Shown here: piece after piece, positions 47,732 through 54,868 of the stretch | How the letters are laid out: each line of letters opens with the position of its first letter | Numbering within the stretch: position 1 is the stretch's first letter | Source: Opitutia bacterium ISCC 52 | Lineage (GTDB): Bacteria; Verrucomicrobiota; Verrucomicrobiia; Opitutales; UBA2995 | Assembly (NCBI GenBank): GCA_014529675.2 | Contig: CP076040.1 | Coordinates: 4,553,501 to 4,617,500 of the forward strand | Direction: 5' to 3' | DNA: 64,000 bases | Made by a program: the position numbers and the translations under genes | Notes under the pieces: generated by a model | Told to the model about the DNA's origin: nothing | The model's input: only the letters and a program-made list of their open reading frames with translations | The model's database searches: none

Positions 47732-48538
47732 ATGTTTTTTGATTCCGATAAATTATTGCTCCTTGCGGGGCCCTGCTCCTTGGAGTCTTTGGAGACATGC
47801 AGGCCTGTTGCCCAGCGCCTGATCGAGCTTCAGGAGCAAAATCCGGAATTAAATATCGTTTTCAAAGGGTCTTTCGATAAGGCCAACCGGACTTCTATTA
47901 GTGGATCGCGCGGTACAGGTCTGGAGTCAGGCTTGGAAATTCTCAGTAGCATTAAAACTGAGTTTGGATTGCCGGTAATGACCGACGTGCATGAATCCAA
48001 TCAATTAGCCAAACTCGCCGAGGTGGTGGATGTTATCCAAATTCCGGCCTTTTTATGCCGTCAGACCGATCTTTTGCTGGCAGCTGCTAAAACAGGGAAA
48101 GTGGTAAACGTCAAAAAGGGGCAGTTCCTTGCGCCGCAGGATATGGCCCATGTGGCTGTTAAATTGCAGGAAGGTGGAGCTTCTGAAATCTGGCTTACCG
48201 AACGAGGGTCTACTTTTGGCTACCAGAATCTTGTGGTGGATATGCGTGGTTTTGAGCAAATGAAAGAAACAGGATATCCTGTCATTTTTGACGCTACCCA
48301 TAGCGTGCAGCTCCCCAGTGGTGGGGACGGGAAGAGTGATGGACAGCGAGAATTCGTGCCACCATTGGCCCGAGCAGCCCTCGCCGCTGGCGCTCAGGGA
48401 ATATTTTTGGAAACCCACCCTGGCCCAGAAAAAGCAATCTCGGATGGGCCTAATATGGTTCCCCTTTCCGAATTATCTGATTTAGTGACCCAATTATTGA
48501 AAATCTGGAAGGTCATGAAATCCTTGGCTCCCAGCTGA
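47732..48538 (+). CDS. kdsA: KDO-8-phosphate synthase
   Basis: A 268-residue TIM-barrel enzyme making 3-deoxy-D-manno-octulosonate 8-phosphate from arabinose-5-phosphate and phosphoenolpyruvate, needed for lipopolysaccharide. Motifs: [10 protein letters not shown] at the N-terminus, [38 protein letters not shown] and [11 protein letters not shown]. It shows the lipid A/LPS outer membrane type of cell. It starts directly after pyrG. The next gene follows after 22 bases. Confidence 0.96.
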
Positions 48539-48560: not shown

Positions 48561-50138
48561 ATGGATATGTTTGTTGCTCAAATCCCAGTCCCCTCTATGG
48601 GGGCTACCGTCCACGAATTAACTCTCATCGATGTTGAGGTTGAAGATGGCGAGTCTGTCCAAAAGGGACAGAAATGCGCCGAATTTGAGAGCGATAAATC
48701 TGCCTTCGATTTTGAAGCCCCTTGTTCGGGTACGATCAAAAAAATCCTGGTAAGAGCGGGCGATATCGTGGAAGCGAATTCCCCTTTTATCTGGATTGAA
48801 ACAGCCGATAGCTCTCAAAAGCACCTTGAAGTTTCAGACGAAGCTGCAAATGGCGTGGATGCACCTTCACCTAAAGAGCCAGTTTCCAAACCACAGCCTG
48901 CGGTCGAAAGTGCTCCTTCAGTTTCCCTAGTTGTGAGGCCTGCCCTGCAAAGTTCTCAACCAGGAGGGTCGGTAAAATGGACACCCAAAGCTTTGCGAAT
49001 CATTCGTGATGCTGGGTTTGATCCCGCGACAATCACGGATATTCCAGCAACGGGACCCGGCGGTCGTGTTTCAGGATATGATGTTCAGGCATATTTAGCT
49101 ACACAACCAGCTCCCACACCAGCTGTGGAGCAGAAGCCTTCGTCAGGATCAGATCGGGAAACCGTATGTATTGCTGGAATTGGCTTTGCGGTTCCCAAAA
49201 CGGTAAAAACGAATAAGGAACTCTTGGAGAAGTTTCCTGGAAAAACAGAAGACGAAATAGTCAAGACAACTGGTATCTCTCAACGGCACATTGCCGGAGA
49301 GGGGGAAGGAGTCACTAAATACGCTTTGTTGGCCTGTGAAAATGCCCTGTCGATGTCTGGAATAGAGGTTTCCGATGTGGATGGTATCATCATGGCTACC
49401 ATCATTCCAGATCAACCCGTTCCGAGTTCAGCCAGTGCCTTGGCTCAACTGCTAGGAATTCCAGGAGCTTTGGCCTTCGACTTGAATGCGGCTTGTTCGG
49501 GCTGGTTATATGCCTTGGAAACCGGGCGTGCTTTTATTCGTTCCGGGACTGCCCGAAACCTATTAGTGGTAACGGGGGAATTACTTTCTCGAATAACTAA
49601 CTACGAAGATTACAGCACGGCTTTCCTATTCGGAGATGGTGCCGGTGCTGCTGTATTAACGGATTCAGAAGAAGGCCATCAACTTCATCGTTTGGAACTT
49701 ACCGGTGACGCAACTCAGTACGAAGCCATCCAGCGTGCTGGAGGAGGAGCTAAGAACCCGATAGCCAAACCCGGCTGTGATTTGTCCGACTTTTACCTTA
49801 CGATGAATGGAGCGGCTGTATTTAAATACGCCGTAGTCGCTTTTGCGGATATCATAGAAGAAACGTTAAAGCGTGAGAATCTTTCCGTGGAGGATGTTGA
49901 TTGGGTGGTTCCACACCAGGCCAATGAACGAATTTTAAAAGCTGTAAGTAAGCGAGTAGGCATACCCTACGAGCGTTTTGTTGTGACCATCGGAAAGTAT
50001 GCGAATACCTCAGCCGCTTCCGTGTCTATGGCGCTGGGGTGGGCCGCAGAAGAAGGGATCTTCGAGCCCGGAAACAAAATCATTTTTTGTTCGGTAGGCG
50101 CAGGATTGACCTACGCGGGTGGGCTTCTCGAGTGGTAG
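48561..50138 (+). CDS. Lipoyl domain-PSBD-FabH fusion protein
   Basis: A 525-residue protein with three parts. Residues ~4-80 are a lipoyl/biotinyl carrier domain with ESDKSAFDFEAP, Lys46 being the expected lipoylation site. Residues ~138-180 are a peripheral subunit-binding domain of the 2-oxoacid dehydrogenase type (WTPKALRIIRDAGFDPATI...GPGGRVSGYDVQAYL). Residues ~200-525 are a beta-ketoacyl-ACP synthase III with the triad Cys312 (AACSGWL), His452 (VPHQAN) and Asn482 (KYANTSAAS). The first two parts match the start of E2 subunits and the E2 acyltransferase core is replaced by FabH. A role in starting branched or unusual fatty acids from a lipoyl-bound acyl group is an inference. Two Pro/Ala-rich linkers join the parts. 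It starts 22 bases after kdsA. Confidence 0.92.
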   Translation: MDMFVAQIPVPSMGATVHELTLIDVEVEDGESVQKGQKCAEFESDKSAFDFEAPCSGTIKKILVRAGDIVEANSPFIWIETADSSQKHLEVSDEAANGVDAPSPKEPVSKPQPAVESAPSVSLVVRPALQSSQPGGSVKWTPKALRIIRDAGFDPATITDIPATGPGGRVSGYDVQAYLATQPAPTPAVEQKPSSGSDRETVCIAGIGFAVPKTVKTNKELLEKFPGKTEDEIVKTTGISQRHIAGEGEGVTKYALLACENALSMSGIEVSDVDGIIMATIIPDQPVPSSASALAQLLGIPGALAFDLNAACSGWLYALETGRAFIRSGTARNLLVVTGELLSRITNYEDYSTAFLFGDGAGAAVLTDSEEGHQLHRLELTGDATQYEAIQRAGGGAKNPIAKPGCDLSDFYLTMNGAAVFKYAVVAFADIIEETLKRENLSVEDVDWVVPHQANERILKAVSKRVGIPYERFVVTIGKYANTSAASVSMALGWAAEEGIFEPGNKIIFCSVGAGLTYAGGLLEW

Positions 50139-50254: not shown

Positions 50255-50854
50255 ATGTCAGTCTTGCTCAACATCCTCATTGAAACTCTTCTTCTGATGG
50301 CCTTCCTATGGATAGGTAAGTCCATCATGAAAGCACAGTTGCACGCCAAAACATTGGTGGTTGCTGCGTTGGCAGGTGCTTGTGTAAGTCAGGTTCCCTT
50401 TGTCGGGCTCTATCTTTCCTTTGCTGTGGTCCTCTTTTTTATGTGGAAAATGGCCCGCGTGGATATGGTACCCGATGGTGCACTGATCGTAATTATCGGT
50501 AAGGGCGTTTCCTTTATCGCGATGATCTGGGTAGTAGGAGCAATTTGGGATCAACCCGGTTCAGGAGACTTAGCTGGGTTGGTAGAAGAAATGCCAATTT
50601 ATGAAGATGGGGACGGCATTCTATATTTCGCTGAAGGAGAAAAAGGTTACCACCGCAATGTGGACGAAGAAAAGGTGTACGTAGATGCTAACGTGCTTTT
50701 TGGTCTATCTGAAGTGGTTTCGGATTCTGCTGAAAGTGACACAACAAATGCCTCCGCGGAGGGCAATGATGTTGCCCCAGATGAGCCTGAAGAAATTGCA
50801 GCCGTTCCACCGAATAATTCAGCTGATGTGGATTCTATTCCGGGATTTTCTTAG
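50255..50854 (+). CDS. Unknown membrane protein
   Basis: A 199-residue protein with three hydrophobic segments in the first ~105 residues (about 4-20, 33-65, 78-98), followed by an acidic C-terminal half (YEDGDGILYFAEGEKGYHRNVDEEKVYVDANVLFG...). The tail is Asp/Glu/Ser-rich and likely disordered. I do not recognise a family. A second unknown gene begins 18 bases downstream, so the two may form a unit. The 116-base gap upstream of it holds an A/T-rich stretch but no clear terminator. Confidence 0.65.
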   Translation: MSVLLNILIETLLLMAFLWIGKSIMKAQLHAKTLVVAALAGACVSQVPFVGLYLSFAVVLFFMWKMARVDMVPDGALIVIIGKGVSFIAMIWVVGAIWDQPGSGDLAGLVEEMPIYEDGDGILYFAEGEKGYHRNVDEEKVYVDANVLFGLSEVVSDSAESDTTNASAEGNDVAPDEPEEIAAVPPNNSADVDSIPGFS

Positions 50855-50872
50855 CCATATCTATCCGACTTG

Positions 50873-51319
50873 ATGGTCCGAGGTGAGCCCATTCCGTTTC
50901 TGCTCTTTGTTCCTAAAGGTTGGATGGTAAAAAAGGAAAAAGGTTCAGTCGCCCTGCGAATTGATGATCATACTTTCATCCACTGCTACTCCAATGATGC
51001 CATTTCGAATAATAAGGCCTATTTACGGGATGAAGTAAATCGCGTACTGTCACAGTATTCTGGGTACGAAGTAGCTCGACAGGAAATTGTAACTATGGAC
51101 AAAAAGCAGTGGGCTCGTGTGCAATTTGTAAACCAAAGGGGTGATCAAGTTCTTATTCTTACTCATGGAGCGAAGCGTGGTTCTTACACCGTTGAGCTAA
51201 ATGGATCATTTAAGCAGCGTAGCTCTCAGAAATCTGTTTTGAGTCGAGTGATTACCAGCTTTAAGTTTCCGGCAAGTACGTACTTCGTAGCAAAAGTTGA
51301 GGCTGAAGAAGAGCTCTAG
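50873..51319 (+). CDS. Unknown PsbP/DUF1795-like small protein
   Basis: A 148-residue protein started at ATG 50873 (a TTG one codon earlier is also possible). It has the profile of small alpha/beta PsbP-like or DUF1795-like proteins: PFLLFVPKGWMVKKEKGSVAL, then VNRVLSQYSGYEVARQEIV, and SVLSRVITSFKF near the end. The similarity is by pattern only. It has no signal peptide or membrane helix. It probably belongs with the membrane protein just upstream. The 3' end overlaps the convergent rsmE gene. Confidence 0.6.
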   Translation: MVRGEPIPFLLFVPKGWMVKKEKGSVALRIDDHTFIHCYSNDAISNNKAYLRDEVNRVLSQYSGYEVARQEIVTMDKKQWARVQFVNQRGDQVLILTHGAKRGSYTVELNGSFKQRSSQKSVLSRVITSFKFPASTYFVAKVEAEEEL

Positions 51320-52041
51320 TCCTCAATCTGTTTCATAAATTCGGAAAGTACCGATAATGCGGATACAGCGGCTGTTTCTGATCTTAGCACGTGGGAGCCT
51401 AATGATACCGGTTGAGCTCCACCTTCAATCAACAATTGATATTCATCAGGGGTAAAGTCGCCTTCAGGGCCAATGAATAAAGTTACTGCTTTGGAAAGCT
51501 GTAAATCACTCCAAATTTTTGCCGTTGATTCCAGGCTGGCAACCACTGCTGTCTCTATTGGATTTTCAGCTAGGAACAGGTCCAATTTTTTTGGAGCACT
51601 CAAAGTGGGTAGCCAAGGGTTTCCGCTTTGTTTGCAGGCTTCAACTAACTGCAGCTGCCACTTCTTGCATTTCGATTCGGCATTTTTAATTTGGACCTGA
51701 GTCCATTGGGTTATCAGTGGTTGAATCCGAGTTACCCCAAGTTCGGTTGCTTGCCTCAGGATTGAATCAAACATTTTGCCCTTAATTAGCGCGATCGCCA
51801 AGGTAATATCTTGGGTGGGTCTATTATTATGAATAGCTTCTTCCTTAATCAGAACACTTCGTCGCTTGTCGGCCTGTTCCAGCCGAGCCTTCCACTCTAA
51901 TCCAGCGCCGTTGAATAGAATTACCTCATCTCCCAGCTTTGCTCGATTGGTTCCCACCAAGTGATGTGACTCGAAGGGCGACAATGTGATTGTGCTTTTT
52001 TCGAGCCCTAAATCTGGGGAATAGTTGCGGAAGTCTGACAT
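51316..52041 (-). CDS. rsmE: 16S rRNA m3U1498 methyltransferase, RsmE copy 1
   Basis: A 241-residue protein of the SPOUT family started at ATG 52041. It carries the knot motif LFIGPEGDFTPDEY and the final LGSHVLRSETA of canonical RsmE, and AIALIKGKMFDSILRQATELGVTRIQP in the middle. It methylates U1498 of 16S rRNA in the assembled 30S subunit. A second, more divergent copy lies at 52895. The 296-base gap between this gene and rsmD holds a nine-pair hairpin at 52116-52139 and otherwise no recognisable element. Confidence 0.9.
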   Translation of the reverse strand: MSDFRNYSPDLGLEKSTITLSPFESHHLVGTNRAKLGDEVILFNGAGLEWKARLEQADKRRSVLIKEEAIHNNRPTQDITLAIALIKGKMFDSILRQATELGVTRIQPLITQWTQVQIKNAESKCKKWQLQLVEACKQSGNPWLPTLSAPKKLDLFLAENPIETAVVASLESTAKIWSDLQLSKAVTLFIGPEGDFTPDEYQLLIEGGAQPVSLGSHVLRSETAAVSALSVLSEFMKQIED

Positions 52042-52115
52042 CGGACCAATCTTGCACACCTTTTTTAGGCCTTGTCCAGATTGTGAAACCTAAATTCAAC
52101 AAGCCCGTACGCAAA

Positions 52116-52337: not shown

Positions 52338-52898
52338 ATGAGAATAACAGGAGGAAGAGCTAAGGGAATTACTCTCAAATCCCCTAAGGGTTCAGTTACA
52401 AGGCCCGCTGCCGACGCCATTCGAGAAGCGCTTTATTCTTCCATTTCCGAAATGGTGCCTGGAAGCCGGGTGTTGGATTTGTTTGCTGGAACGGGTGCTT
52501 ATGGGCTCGAAGCATTGAGCCGAGGAGCCTCCAGGATACAATTTGTGGAATCAGACAGAAAGGCAGTGGCCTCAATTAAAGAAAACCTGCAACGCGTGAG
52601 AAAGAGTTCAGATCTTGAGTCTGCAGAAACAGAGATTTTTCAAGGTGATGTTTTCAAGCTTCGTTCGCTGAACACACAAGATTGGGATATTCTGATCGCT
52701 GATCCTCCCTATGCCGATATCCCGTCCATCGAATCAAAGCTCTTTTATTTGGCTGAGCGATTGCTGGTCTCAGCTGGTTTATTAATTTTGGAGCACCCTG
52801 CGAATCTAATTCTTACTTCCGAAAACTGGGTGGAAATAAAACGCTTGGGAAAGAAGCGTGGTCGTGGACCGTCGGTTAGTATCTGGAGAAGATCTTAG
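52338..52898 (+). CDS. rsmD: 16S rRNA m2G966 methyltransferase RsmD
   Basis: A 186-residue Rossmann-fold methyltransferase. The start MRITGGRAKGITLKSPKG, the SAM site RVLDLFAGTGAYGLEALSRGA and the catalytic motif LIADPPYADIP (DPPY) identify RsmD. It acts on G966 of 16S rRNA. It overlaps the convergent second rsmE gene by four bases. Confidence 0.93.
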   Translation: MRITGGRAKGITLKSPKGSVTRPAADAIREALYSSISEMVPGSRVLDLFAGTGAYGLEALSRGASRIQFVESDRKAVASIKENLQRVRKSSDLESAETEIFQGDVFKLRSLNTQDWDILIADPPYADIPSIESKLFYLAERLLVSAGLLILEHPANLILTSENWVEIKRLGKKRGRGPSVSIWRRS

Positions 52899-53608
52899 AG
52901 CTTAGCTTGGCTGCTAATAATTGCGATTCCTGAGATACAAGCTGTTTCGGTTCGTAGAACTCGTGAACCCAAGTCTACCAGTGTAAATCCATTTTTTCTG
53001 AGAAGATCCCTCTCCAGCTTGCTCCAACCTCGTTCGCCACCCACGGCTAGAGTTATAGGTTCATTCAATAACTCGATGGCGCCCAGCGGTTTTTTACTTT
53101 CGTAATTGTCCAAGGCCAAACACGTCCCGGCTGGTTTATTATCTTCAATGGTATCTGCAAGTTCGTCTCCAAACCTCAGTTGTGGAATCTGAGTACAAAA
53201 TGCTTGTTCGGCACCACGAATCAATAGCCTTTCAGCTTCGCCTGTTGTCCAAAGCTTACTCTTTCTGTAACTAGGCTCACATTTTTCAGTATCAAAAAAA
53301 TTGATACTATTAACTCCCAGTGATGCACATTCCTGCAAAATTCTTCGACAAGTTTGAGGTCTGCAGAAGCTGACCCACAAATCTATTGAGAGCAGGGAAG
53401 GGACCTCTGTCTCCCACTCAAAACTAAGTTGCAATGGTCCCTTGTCTGCACTTTTCCAACTAGCCTTTCCACGGGGACCATTTATTAAGCCCACATCAAA
53501 CGTCTGCCCTGAGTCCATCCTTAGTACTTCTAGGATATGAACCGCGCGTGGATCTGATCTTACTAGGGGAACCTCAAGCTCTTCTTGTTTAAACAGAATC
53601 AGGTTCAC
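52895..53608 (-). CDS. RsmE family methyltransferase, divergent copy 2
   Basis: A 237-residue SPOUT-type protein of the same COG1385 family as the gene at 51316 but of a different branch. It begins MNLILFKQEEL and has LWVSFCRPQTCRRILQECASLGVNSINFF, CEPSYRKSKLW, and the knot LAVGGERGWSKLE with LGSRVLRTETA. The RPQ...ILQ...LGV and YRKS pattern is that of the proteobacterial-type RsmE branch. Whether both copies methylate U1498, or this one has another target, is open. It is followed by the metal permease gene upstream in the operon order (12 bases). Confidence 0.85.
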   Translation of the reverse strand: MNLILFKQEELEVPLVRSDPRAVHILEVLRMDSGQTFDVGLINGPRGKASWKSADKGPLQLSFEWETEVPSLLSIDLWVSFCRPQTCRRILQECASLGVNSINFFDTEKCEPSYRKSKLWTTGEAERLLIRGAEQAFCTQIPQLRFGDELADTIEDNKPAGTCLALDNYESKKPLGAIELLNEPITLAVGGERGWSKLERDLLRKNGFTLVDLGSRVLRTETACISGIAIISSQAKL

Positions 53609-53620
53609 GAAATACGTTGA

Positions 53621-54868
53621 TTAATTGATTCCCTTGAACTCATACCCGGCTTCTTCAACCGCCTGAGAAACTTGTGAAAGATTGATGTCCTGTCCTTCAA
53701 CCCAAGCCAGGTTTTGATTCGCATCTGCCTTGGCTGAGTGGATGCCCGAAATTCCCTCGAGTGCCTGTTTCACGTGATTCGCGCAATGGCTACAAGTCAT
53801 CCCATCGATTTTCAATGTAATCGTATCTGAGTCCGTCATGGTTGTTTGATTTTTCTTCTGTGCTAACTTTGGATGCAAATAGGTCCAAGTGATCATGCTC
53901 AGTAGGCTGATAGCTGAAATAAATTTGATCCACGAAAATTCTCCCGACATATCGTGATGTGCCATCCCTTCCCTTATTAGGATTCCCCCGTAGATGTCTA
54001 GTAGCCAACCACTCAGCCAGGATATGCCAATAATAGATAGTAGATAAATGGAAATGGTTTTGCGCCCAAGCATCTTGTATAGGGTGGTGATGGTAGCTAC
54101 GTTGGTGGCTGGGCCTGCAATCAGGAAGACCAAGGCGGCTCCGGGGCTGACTCCAGATGCCAGTAGCGCGAAAGCGATTGGTATCGAACCGGTTGAGCAC
54201 ACATAAAGAGGGATGGCTATCATAGTTACTGCCAGGTAGGTTAACCATGGGTTGCTTAAATAATTTTCACCCCAGTTCTCCGGAAGAACTGCTCCCAATA
54301 GCCCTGCTAAAACAATGCCTAATACCAAGGTCTTTCCTATGTCCTGAGGAAGTGTATAAAACCCATAAGTGAATATCGCTATGAACTTTTCTCCTGCGCG
54401 TCTAGTATCGGCAACAACAGCTTGCGACTCGATGCACTTTATTTTGGGAGCTTCTTTGTCTAATAAGTCGACAACCAGTCCTGCGATGATACCCGAAACC
54501 AACGCTACTGCTACTCGGAACGAGGCAAAGAAGGGGCCAATGAGCCCAGCGGTTGCCAAAATGGAATCCACCCCCGTTTGGGGAGTCGAAGTCAGGAAGG
54601 AAGTTGTGGCTCCCTTGCTTGCTCCTCGCTGGTAGAGAGATGAAGTGACTGGGATAACGCCACATGAGCACAAGGGTAGGGGAACTCCCAATAGGGAAGC
54701 TTTGACAACTGAGCCAAAGGAACGCTTTCCAAGCCACCGTTCAATCAGTTCTTGTCGAACAACAATGGAAAGTAAACCCGCTAGAATGAAACCCAATAAA
54801 AGGTAAGGGGACATTTCCAATATAATGTCCCATGTCTCCAGCAGCCAGTTGAGTATCCAATCCTTCAT
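53621..54868 (-). CDS. Cu/Zn efflux permease with HMA domain (SO_0444 type)
   Basis: A 415-residue protein. The membrane part (~1-330, about ten helices) belongs to the DUF318/ArsP permease family and has the hallmark PLPLCSCGVIPVTSSLY and its repeat PLYVCSTGSIPIAFALL. The C-terminus (~350-415) is a heavy-metal-associated domain with GMTCSHC (Cys359, Cys362). Permease plus HMA is the form known as SO_0444-type Cu/Zn efflux. The neighbouring CsoR with a Cu-type ligand set supports copper. The start lies seven bases after the csoR stop, so repression is shared. Confidence 0.88.
   Translation of the reverse strand: MKDWILNWLLETWDIILEMSPYLLLGFILAGLLSIVVRQELIERWLGKRSFGSVVKASLLGVPLPLCSCGVIPVTSSLYQRGASKGATTSFLTSTPQTGVDSILATAGLIGPFFASFRVAVALVSGIIAGLVVDLLDKEAPKIKCIESQAVVADTRRAGEKFIAIFTYGFYTLPQDIGKTLVLGIVLAGLLGAVLPENWGENYLSNPWLTYLAVTMIAIPLYVCSTGSIPIAFALLASGVSPGAALVFLIAGPATNVATITTLYKMLGRKTISIYLLSIIGISWLSGWLLDIYGGILIREGMAHHDMSGEFSWIKFISAISLLSMITWTYLHPKLAQKKNQTTMTDSDTITLKIDGMTCSHCANHVKQALEGISGIHSAKADANQNLAWVEGQDINLSQVSQAVEEAGYEFKGIN

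Follow-up and report, generated by a model that had tools for sequence, protein, structure and literature searches.

A lipoyl and subunit-binding arm fused to FabH in Opitutales: a putative 2-oxo-acid dehydrogenase E2 with a ketosynthase in place of its acyltransferase core

The genome of Opitutia bacterium ISCC 52 encodes a protein in which a lipoyl domain and an E3/E1 peripheral subunit-binding domain (PSBD) precede, in one frame, a full FabH (KAS III) domain. Judging from sequence comparisons, we consider it probable that this protein serves a 2-oxo-acid dehydrogenase as its 'E2', with FabH in place of the acyltransferase core and with a hand-over of the acyl group to FabH that does not involve CoA. 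This reading is favoured because an orphan E1, an invariant lipoyl-domain lysine, a docking domain and the loss of the CoA contacts of FabH are each expected under it. On balance, we also favour a CoA-free start of fatty acids from 2-oxo acids, in which lipoyl-lysine, instead of CoA or ACP, would carry the primer when the carbon-carbon bond is formed and which may feed branched chains to outer-membrane lipids.

Domain organization of the fused protein

The following features of the fused gene were located in the window, which is the whole stretch of 64,000 nucleotides that was analysed (contig CP076040.1), numbered from its first letter; "rows" are those of the residue survey given below.

48561..50138, + strand: lipoyl domain-PSBD-FabH fusion gene, one frame from the ATG at 48561 to the stop at 50138, 525 aa
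48579..48788, + strand: lipoyl domain, residues 7-76 (Pfam PF00364 Biotin_lipoyl, E 2e-15; a barrel in the structural model)
48696..48698, + strand: Lys46, predicted lipoylation site (ESDKS), in 77/77 loci having the N-terminal part
48849..48968, + strand: flexible linker, residues 97-136 (pLDDT < 50)
48975..49088, + strand: PSBD, residues 139-176 (Pfam PF02817 E3_binding)
49161..50135, + strand: FabH (KAS III) domain, residues 201-525 (Pfam and NCBIfam)
49494..49496, + strand: Cys312, catalytic nucleophile (81/81 rows)
49914..49916, + strand: His452, catalytic (81/81 rows)
50004..50006, + strand: Asn482, catalytic (81/81 rows)

The FabH half was recognised in Pfam by ACP_syn_III (residues 306-379) and ACP_syn_III_C (436-525), two FabH subfamily models of NCBIfam exceeded their cut-offs over residues 201-525, and membership of the KAS III family was supported by TIGR00747 with 307.1 bits against a cut-off of 292.1. 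The E2 models of NCBIfam were confined to about residues 5-199, with scores under their cut-offs, and the Pfam and NCBIfam scans of the 525-aa protein gave no match to the E2 acyltransferase core (PF00198), in whose place FabH stands. The E3_binding match of the window protein, at 23.9 bits, barely exceeds the cut-off of 23.7 and is borderline when taken alone; the PSBD was nevertheless counted as real because the same family was matched at E ≤ 0.001 in all 47 aligned fused proteins (best 4.7e-12), namely the one of the window together with those of 46 fused loci out of the 51 described below. Lipoyl and FabH family matches were likewise found in 47/47 of these proteins, and Lys46, Cys312, His452 and Asn482 were invariant throughout the alignment. 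A preliminary description of this DNA, made from the letters alone, had proposed a one-frame fusion of a lipoyl domain bearing Lys46, a PSBD and a FabH with an intact Cys312-His452-Asn482 triad, lacking the E2 acyltransferase core. The family matches, the like architecture of 51 of 80 relatives and the triad kept in 81/81 rows confirm this layout, and no PF00198 match was found to contradict the missing core.

An AlphaFold2 model of the 525-aa protein (mean pLDDT 75.9) agrees with this organization. Strands between residues 4 and 81 form a lipoyl-type barrel, with Lys46 on the turn that joins strand 38-43 to strand 48-52, and helices 142-150 and 172-181 are followed by the FabH domain. The pLDDT falls below 50 in the linkers at residues 97-136 and 187-197, and also near the active site at residues 307-310, 479-481 and 483-486.

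Distribution and gene architecture

A pattern scan covering one genome per bacterial or archaeal species found 118 relatives, and the best 80 of these 118 were analysed (loci and genomes are designated below by L and G numbers). Among them, 51 carry the fused form, 25 an adjacent gene pair, one is probably frameshifted and three show no visible lipoyl part. By their labels, all but one of the 80 belong to Verrucomicrobiota, mostly to Opitutales/Opitutaceae (four bins are labelled Akkermansia), and the remaining one is labelled only 'bacterium'. The split form of the 25 loci consists of a separate lipoyl gene of 155-168 codons followed by fabH, with 37-61 bases from the lipoyl gene to the FabH match (349 in L075); the PSBD of the split forms was recognised by eye in six loci. 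Two of the rows without a lipoyl part, L072 and L078, start at a contig end, and in L079 no lipoyl part was found in the ORFs read upstream of fabH. An assembly join or chimera was ruled out as the source of the fusion by its recurrence in 51 of the best 80 relatives, with adjacent genes in 25, and a broken E2 followed by chance by a downstream FabH was ruled out by the invariance of Lys46 and the triad and the conservation of the binding domain. In the frameshifted locus (L071:10001-11915) the lipoyl and FabH parts are out of frame and the match frame holds 16 stops, probably through an assembly frameshift or decay.

Maximum-likelihood analysis of the FabH part placed all 25 split genes, along with two rows in which no lipoyl part was visible, in one group among the fused ones (support 94/99, under the star of the tool, in a tree rooted at midpoint only), which suggests that the split genes arose by later fission of the fused form. 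Covalent tethering would not seem to be needed, since the lipoyl-PSBD part is separate in 25 loci and none was seen in L079.

A phylum-wide search of 337 genomes (E ≤ 1e-18) placed the module in 27 genomes of the order and, outside it, in G602 alone; by eye, this last match looks like an ordinary E2 of PDH that has a core itself, and it was rejected as a true module. One genome (G213) carries a second full-length lipoyl-PSBD-FabH (L175:4405-5982), possibly a specialised copy, with 46% identity to that of the window over the lipoyl-PSBD part and no kdsA in the ORFs read around it.

An orphan E1 that accompanies the module

The genome of ISCC 52 is a single contig of 4.8 Mb with five biotin/lipoyl-type matches and three PSBD matches; at E ≤ 1e-10, it has two E2 cores. 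Besides the lipoyl-FabH, the PDH E2 and the OGDH E2 account for the PSBD matches, and both E2s adjoin E1 genes. Searches for E1 retrieved those of PDH and OGDH, a third, orphan E1 of 686 aa in which alpha and beta are fused and beside which no E2 is encoded, and weaker matches, one of which we take to be a transketolase. An E3 gene and a canonical fabH, adjacent to what is presumably plsX, are also present. The preliminary description had named E1 and E3 genes and a second fabH as items to look for in the genome, and all of them are there, the E1 being without an adjacent E2.

With respect to membership of the branched-chain 2-oxo-acid dehydrogenases, the orphan E1 is of the alpha/beta type. 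Among PDB entries its alpha half is nearest to human BCKDH alpha (1.3e-25; a bacterial PDH alpha gives 2.3e-18) and its beta half is equally close to PDH and BCKDH; it is probably of the branched-chain type. A branched acyl group, as the preliminary description had suggested, appears likely, yet the orphan E1 falls short of every NCBIfam cut-off, and the models that fit it best there are those of PDH. In the 20 top-scoring E1 loci, the motif GDG...NN, with 24-28 residues between, was present in 20/20 and the E1 histidine motif in 19/20, and two of the 20 matches have a stop before the last three residues.

Among 286 genomes of the class, 35 carry the module, and it is these 35 and no others that have a close homologue of the orphan E1. 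The cut for the module lay at E below 1e-20, after which the matches continue at 1.4e-18 with frames the size of an E2, and the E1 homologues counted have 46-59% identity, the other rows listed having 43% or less and the best full-length ones 34-37%. Among 376 genomes of the order, 167 carry both, four the module only, four the E1 only and 201 neither, at thresholds of 1e-18 for the module and 1e-90 for the E1 among the matches listed, so that the E1 counts may include a few distant ones; the eight genomes in which one partner is missing are draft assemblies in 160-900 contigs. Because the genomes group by descent, this co-occurrence rests on few independent losses, and the value of a Fisher test, which takes no account of descent, is not to be taken as a probability. 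One family contains 34 of the 35 pair-bearing genomes of the class. Two genomes of the same family, G024 and G205, lack both E1 and module and have three E2 cores each, although the class set includes four members of the genus of G205 that carry both. Of the pair-bearing genomes, 24 carry no more than two E2 cores, ten carry three and one carries four.

In four genomes chosen from other orders, an E1 homologue of 34-36% identity is followed directly by an ordinary E2, whose core was confirmed by Pfam in L138; these genomes were picked from the 34-37% E1 matches, G150 on account of a lipoyl match already noticed beside its E1. By BLASTP, the lipoyl part of the window protein is nearest to the E2 adjoining the E1 homologue in one of them (L139, 4.7e-17), with 1.3e-9 to the PDH E2 of its own genome; the E2s of L138 and L141 score no better than that PDH E2 and that of L140 scores worse. 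These scores do not single out one source for the lipoyl part.

Active site and coenzyme A contacts of the ketosynthase

Active-site residues were surveyed in the 80 lipoyl-FabH loci and the window protein (81 rows, E. coli FabH numbering). Canonical FabHs from 28 related genomes, of which 26 carry the E1-module pair and two do not, served as reference, from which two lipoyl-FabH rows were left out. The substituted positions of the window protein are as follows.

49254..49256, + strand: Glu232, at E. coli FabH Trp32 (CoA adenine stacking); Glu in 78/81
49266..49268, + strand: Thr236, at E. coli FabH Arg36 (CoA contact)
49419..49421, + strand: Val287, at E. coli FabH Phe87
49611..49613, + strand: Tyr351, at E. 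coli FabH Arg151 (CoA adenine stacking); His in 71/81

The catalytic Cys112, His244 and Asn274 are present in 81/81 lipoyl-FabHs. Three basic residues of E. coli FabH that we take to face ACP are also largely retained, Arg249 in 81/81, Lys214 in 79 (Arg in two) and Lys256 in 77 (Arg in four). According to the parts of PMC4606726 available to us, in which a CoA-bound E. coli FabH was superposed, the CoA adenine is contacted by Trp32, Arg151 and Thr28 and the pantetheine by Arg36 and two Asn. Thr28, Trp32 and Arg36 are kept in 0/80 lipoyl-FabHs (one more row is gapped there) and Arg151 in 0/81, against 28/28 canonical FabHs for each of the four. Decay does not account for this loss, position 32 being Glu in 78/81, whether fused or split. 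Phe213, Ala246 and Asn247 of the pantetheine region are kept in 81/81 lipoyl-FabHs; Asn at position 247 is shared by both sets and Asn at position 210, which we take to be the second pantetheine Asn named in the same excerpts of PMC4606726, occurs in neither. With the ACP-facing residues kept and the CoA contacts lost, the lipoyl-FabH should still meet malonyl-ACP but hold CoA badly. These substitutions make CoA an unlikely donor, although the kept Phe213, Ala246 and Asn247 may still allow it to bind, and an acyl-ACP donor would fit the residues as well.

The preliminary description had raised the alternative that the arm merely localises FabH. In that case, the lipoyl-PSBD part would bring FabH to a dehydrogenase, and acyl-CoA made on a different E2 core, such as the one in PDH, would then be used by FabH nearby. 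An E2 core of broad acceptance could indeed serve the orphan E1, three E2 cores occur in ten of the 35 pair-bearing genomes and four in one, and the pantetheine-region residues are kept. The absence of Thr28, Trp32, Arg36 and Arg151 from the lipoyl-FabHs (81 rows, one gapped), when 28/28 canonical FabHs keep them, and the invariance of Lys46 and its surroundings in 77/77 loci, which a mere anchor would not need, weaken this alternative, to which we grant a low but appreciable probability.

Some KAS III enzymes of secondary metabolism take their primer from acyl-ACP. Priming of the lipoyl-FabH in the same way, with the lipoyl arm in a redox or regulatory role, is a rather improbable explanation: it would leave the close pairing with an E2-less E1 unexplained, even though the loss of the CoA contacts fits any protein-bound primer and lipoyl proteins with roles outside acyl transfer exist, as stated in the portions available from PMC6067878.

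At position 87 the lipoyl-FabHs have Val in 79 rows and Ile in two, whereas the 28 canonical FabHs have Met in 11, Phe in 10, Leu in six and Ile in one. Phe87 of E. coli FabH presumably lies in the primer pocket, work on the E. coli and S. aureus enzymes is the basis for linking the size of this residue to that of the primer, and the small residue suggests a larger primer. This bears on the explanation that the E1 of PDH loads the arm with acetyl, for straight-chain initiation without acetyl-CoA. The genome does encode the E1 and E2 of PDH, and the PSBD could bind that E1; however, the module and the orphan E1 occur together and position 87 is small in 81/81 rows, which makes acetyl loading very improbable.

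A canonical FabH was matched in all 30 genomes searched, and in the 28/28 of them that bear the pair it stands besides the lipoyl-FabH (full-length in 26, partial in G059 and G478). The lipoyl-FabH as the sole FabH of the cell was ruled out in this way in the genome of ISCC 52 and in 27/29 others, the match in G059 and G478 being partial.

Proposed reaction and comparison with known enzymes

In the E2-like reading that we prefer, the orphan E1 would decarboxylate a 2-oxo acid and load the acyl group onto the lipoyl arm at Lys46, which we expect to be lipoylated, and the arm would swing via the flexible linker to the FabH domain. There Cys312 would take the acyl group directly from the lipoyl thioester rather than from acyl-CoA and condense it with malonyl-ACP, and the E3 common to OGDH, held by the PSBD, would reoxidise the arm; contacts of the PSBD with both E1 and E3 are presumed. 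The predicted net reaction is 2-oxo acid + malonyl-ACP + NAD+ -> 3-oxoacyl-ACP + 2 CO2 + NADH, with no free acyl-CoA. A route from E1 through the lipoyl arm to FabH that by-passes acyl-CoA was the central proposal of the preliminary description, and the co-occurrence of E1 and module and the loss of the CoA contacts argue for it. On the other accounts, the pairing with the orphan E1, the invariant Lys46, the PSBD and the lost CoA contacts need separate excuses.

The protein resembles the E2s of PDH, BCKDH and OGDH in its N-terminal lipoyl domain, flexible linker, PSBD and C-terminal predicted acyl acceptor and, as for those complexes, a candidate cognate E1, together with an E3, is encoded in the genome; it differs in that the PF00198 core is absent and a KAS III stands instead, so that the predicted acceptor is the ketosynthase Cys and malonyl-ACP, not CoA. 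It shares with FabH/KAS III the full-length domain, the Cys-His-Asn triad and the ACP-facing basic residues, but departs from canonical FabH in its N-terminal carrier and docking domains, in the replacement of Thr28, Trp32, Arg36 and Arg151 and in Val/Ile at position 87. It is not a strict member of the E2 family, because the catalytic core is absent, nor, by its residues, a CoA-primed FabH, because the CoA contacts are absent. In the route of Bacillus to branched-chain fatty acids, BCKDH and FabH are two separate enzymes joined by free acyl-CoA; the input (a branched 2-oxo acid) and the output (a branched 3-oxoacyl-ACP) are likely the same here, but both steps are predicted within one complex, without the free acyl-CoA link. 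A swinging arm that carries a thioester to a ketosynthase Cys is familiar from fatty-acid and polyketide synthases, from whose carriers the present one differs in that the arm would be lipoyl-lysine, reductively acylated by a TPP-dependent E1, and not phosphopantetheine. In the open PMC literature, to which the search was confined, no description of the lipoyl-PSBD-FabH architecture was apparent among the papers listed; the preliminary description knew of no characterised protein with this layout.

If true, this reaction would link fatty-acid initiation with oxidative decarboxylation, central machines that textbooks present separately, and the acyl group would go from the dehydrogenase to the growing lipid, skipping the acyl-CoA pool. 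It could explain branched acids in many Opitutales without a third E2, and would offer a testable case in which another catalyst has taken over from an E2 core, as well as a module for the production of branched lipids. In the portions available from descriptions of fatty-acid content (PMC12193912, PMC5303756, PMC10288369), Lacunisphaera and Nibricoccus (Opitutaceae) have much iso-C15:0, iso-C14:0 or anteiso-C15:0 (PMC5303756, PMC12193912), and iso/anteiso acids are also given for Coraliomargarita and Puniceicoccus, outside Opitutaceae. Fatty-acid content was set aside as a discriminator, since in these excerpts branched acids also occur outside Opitutaceae and the assayed isolates are not matched to the genomes analysed.

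Genomic context

Upstream of the fusion the window holds the following gene.

47732..48538, + strand: kdsA (3-deoxy-8-phosphooctulonate synthase), NCBIfam TIGR01362 over its cut-off, 22 bases upstream of the fusion

The gene order in the window is pyrG, kdsA and the fusion, and kdsA and the fusion probably share an operon. In the 72 loci having at least 1.5 kb upstream of the module, kdsA lies within 400 bases in 41, pyrG lies directly upstream in 12 and neither does in 19. In the genome of ISCC 52, kdsC comes 3 bases after the orphan E1, and next come lptC, lptA, lptB and hprK; lptC has no NCBIfam name and was assigned from its place, and lptA scores 43.6 bits, under the cut-off of 71.7. In 19 of the 20 top-scoring E1 loci, this genome included, kdsC adjoins the E1, the exception being L124. 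Because kdsA, kdsC and lpt genes are the neighbours of the two systems, we infer that the product is used in envelope lipids.

The E1 and the lipoyl-FabH were not seen in one operon at any locus read. Four genomes with both matches on one contig were fetched; in L134-L136 both systems lie within 14-16 kb, and the stretch of L137 stopped short of the module. At these three linked loci the E1 and the lipoyl-FabH are 10-12 kb apart.

A dehydrogenase stands beside a lipid A gene again in one of the other-order genomes, which we take to be Akkermansia-like, where genes for E1 alpha, E1 beta and E2 are directly followed by lpxI (L138:4896-9079). Just downstream of the fusion, the window encodes a protein of 199 aa (50255-50851, + strand) with no Pfam match; among the best 80 loci, genes like it were noticed in L001, L002 and L072 only. 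Further on, two genes on the - strand (51316-52059 and 52895-53608), presumably encoding RsmE-like proteins, flank a third that we take to be RsmD-like; the first resembles, at 22-30%, what occupies the place of the second in near relatives. They are followed by a gene (53621-54868, - strand) for what is presumably a permease-like protein whose C-terminus resembles a heavy-metal-binding domain.
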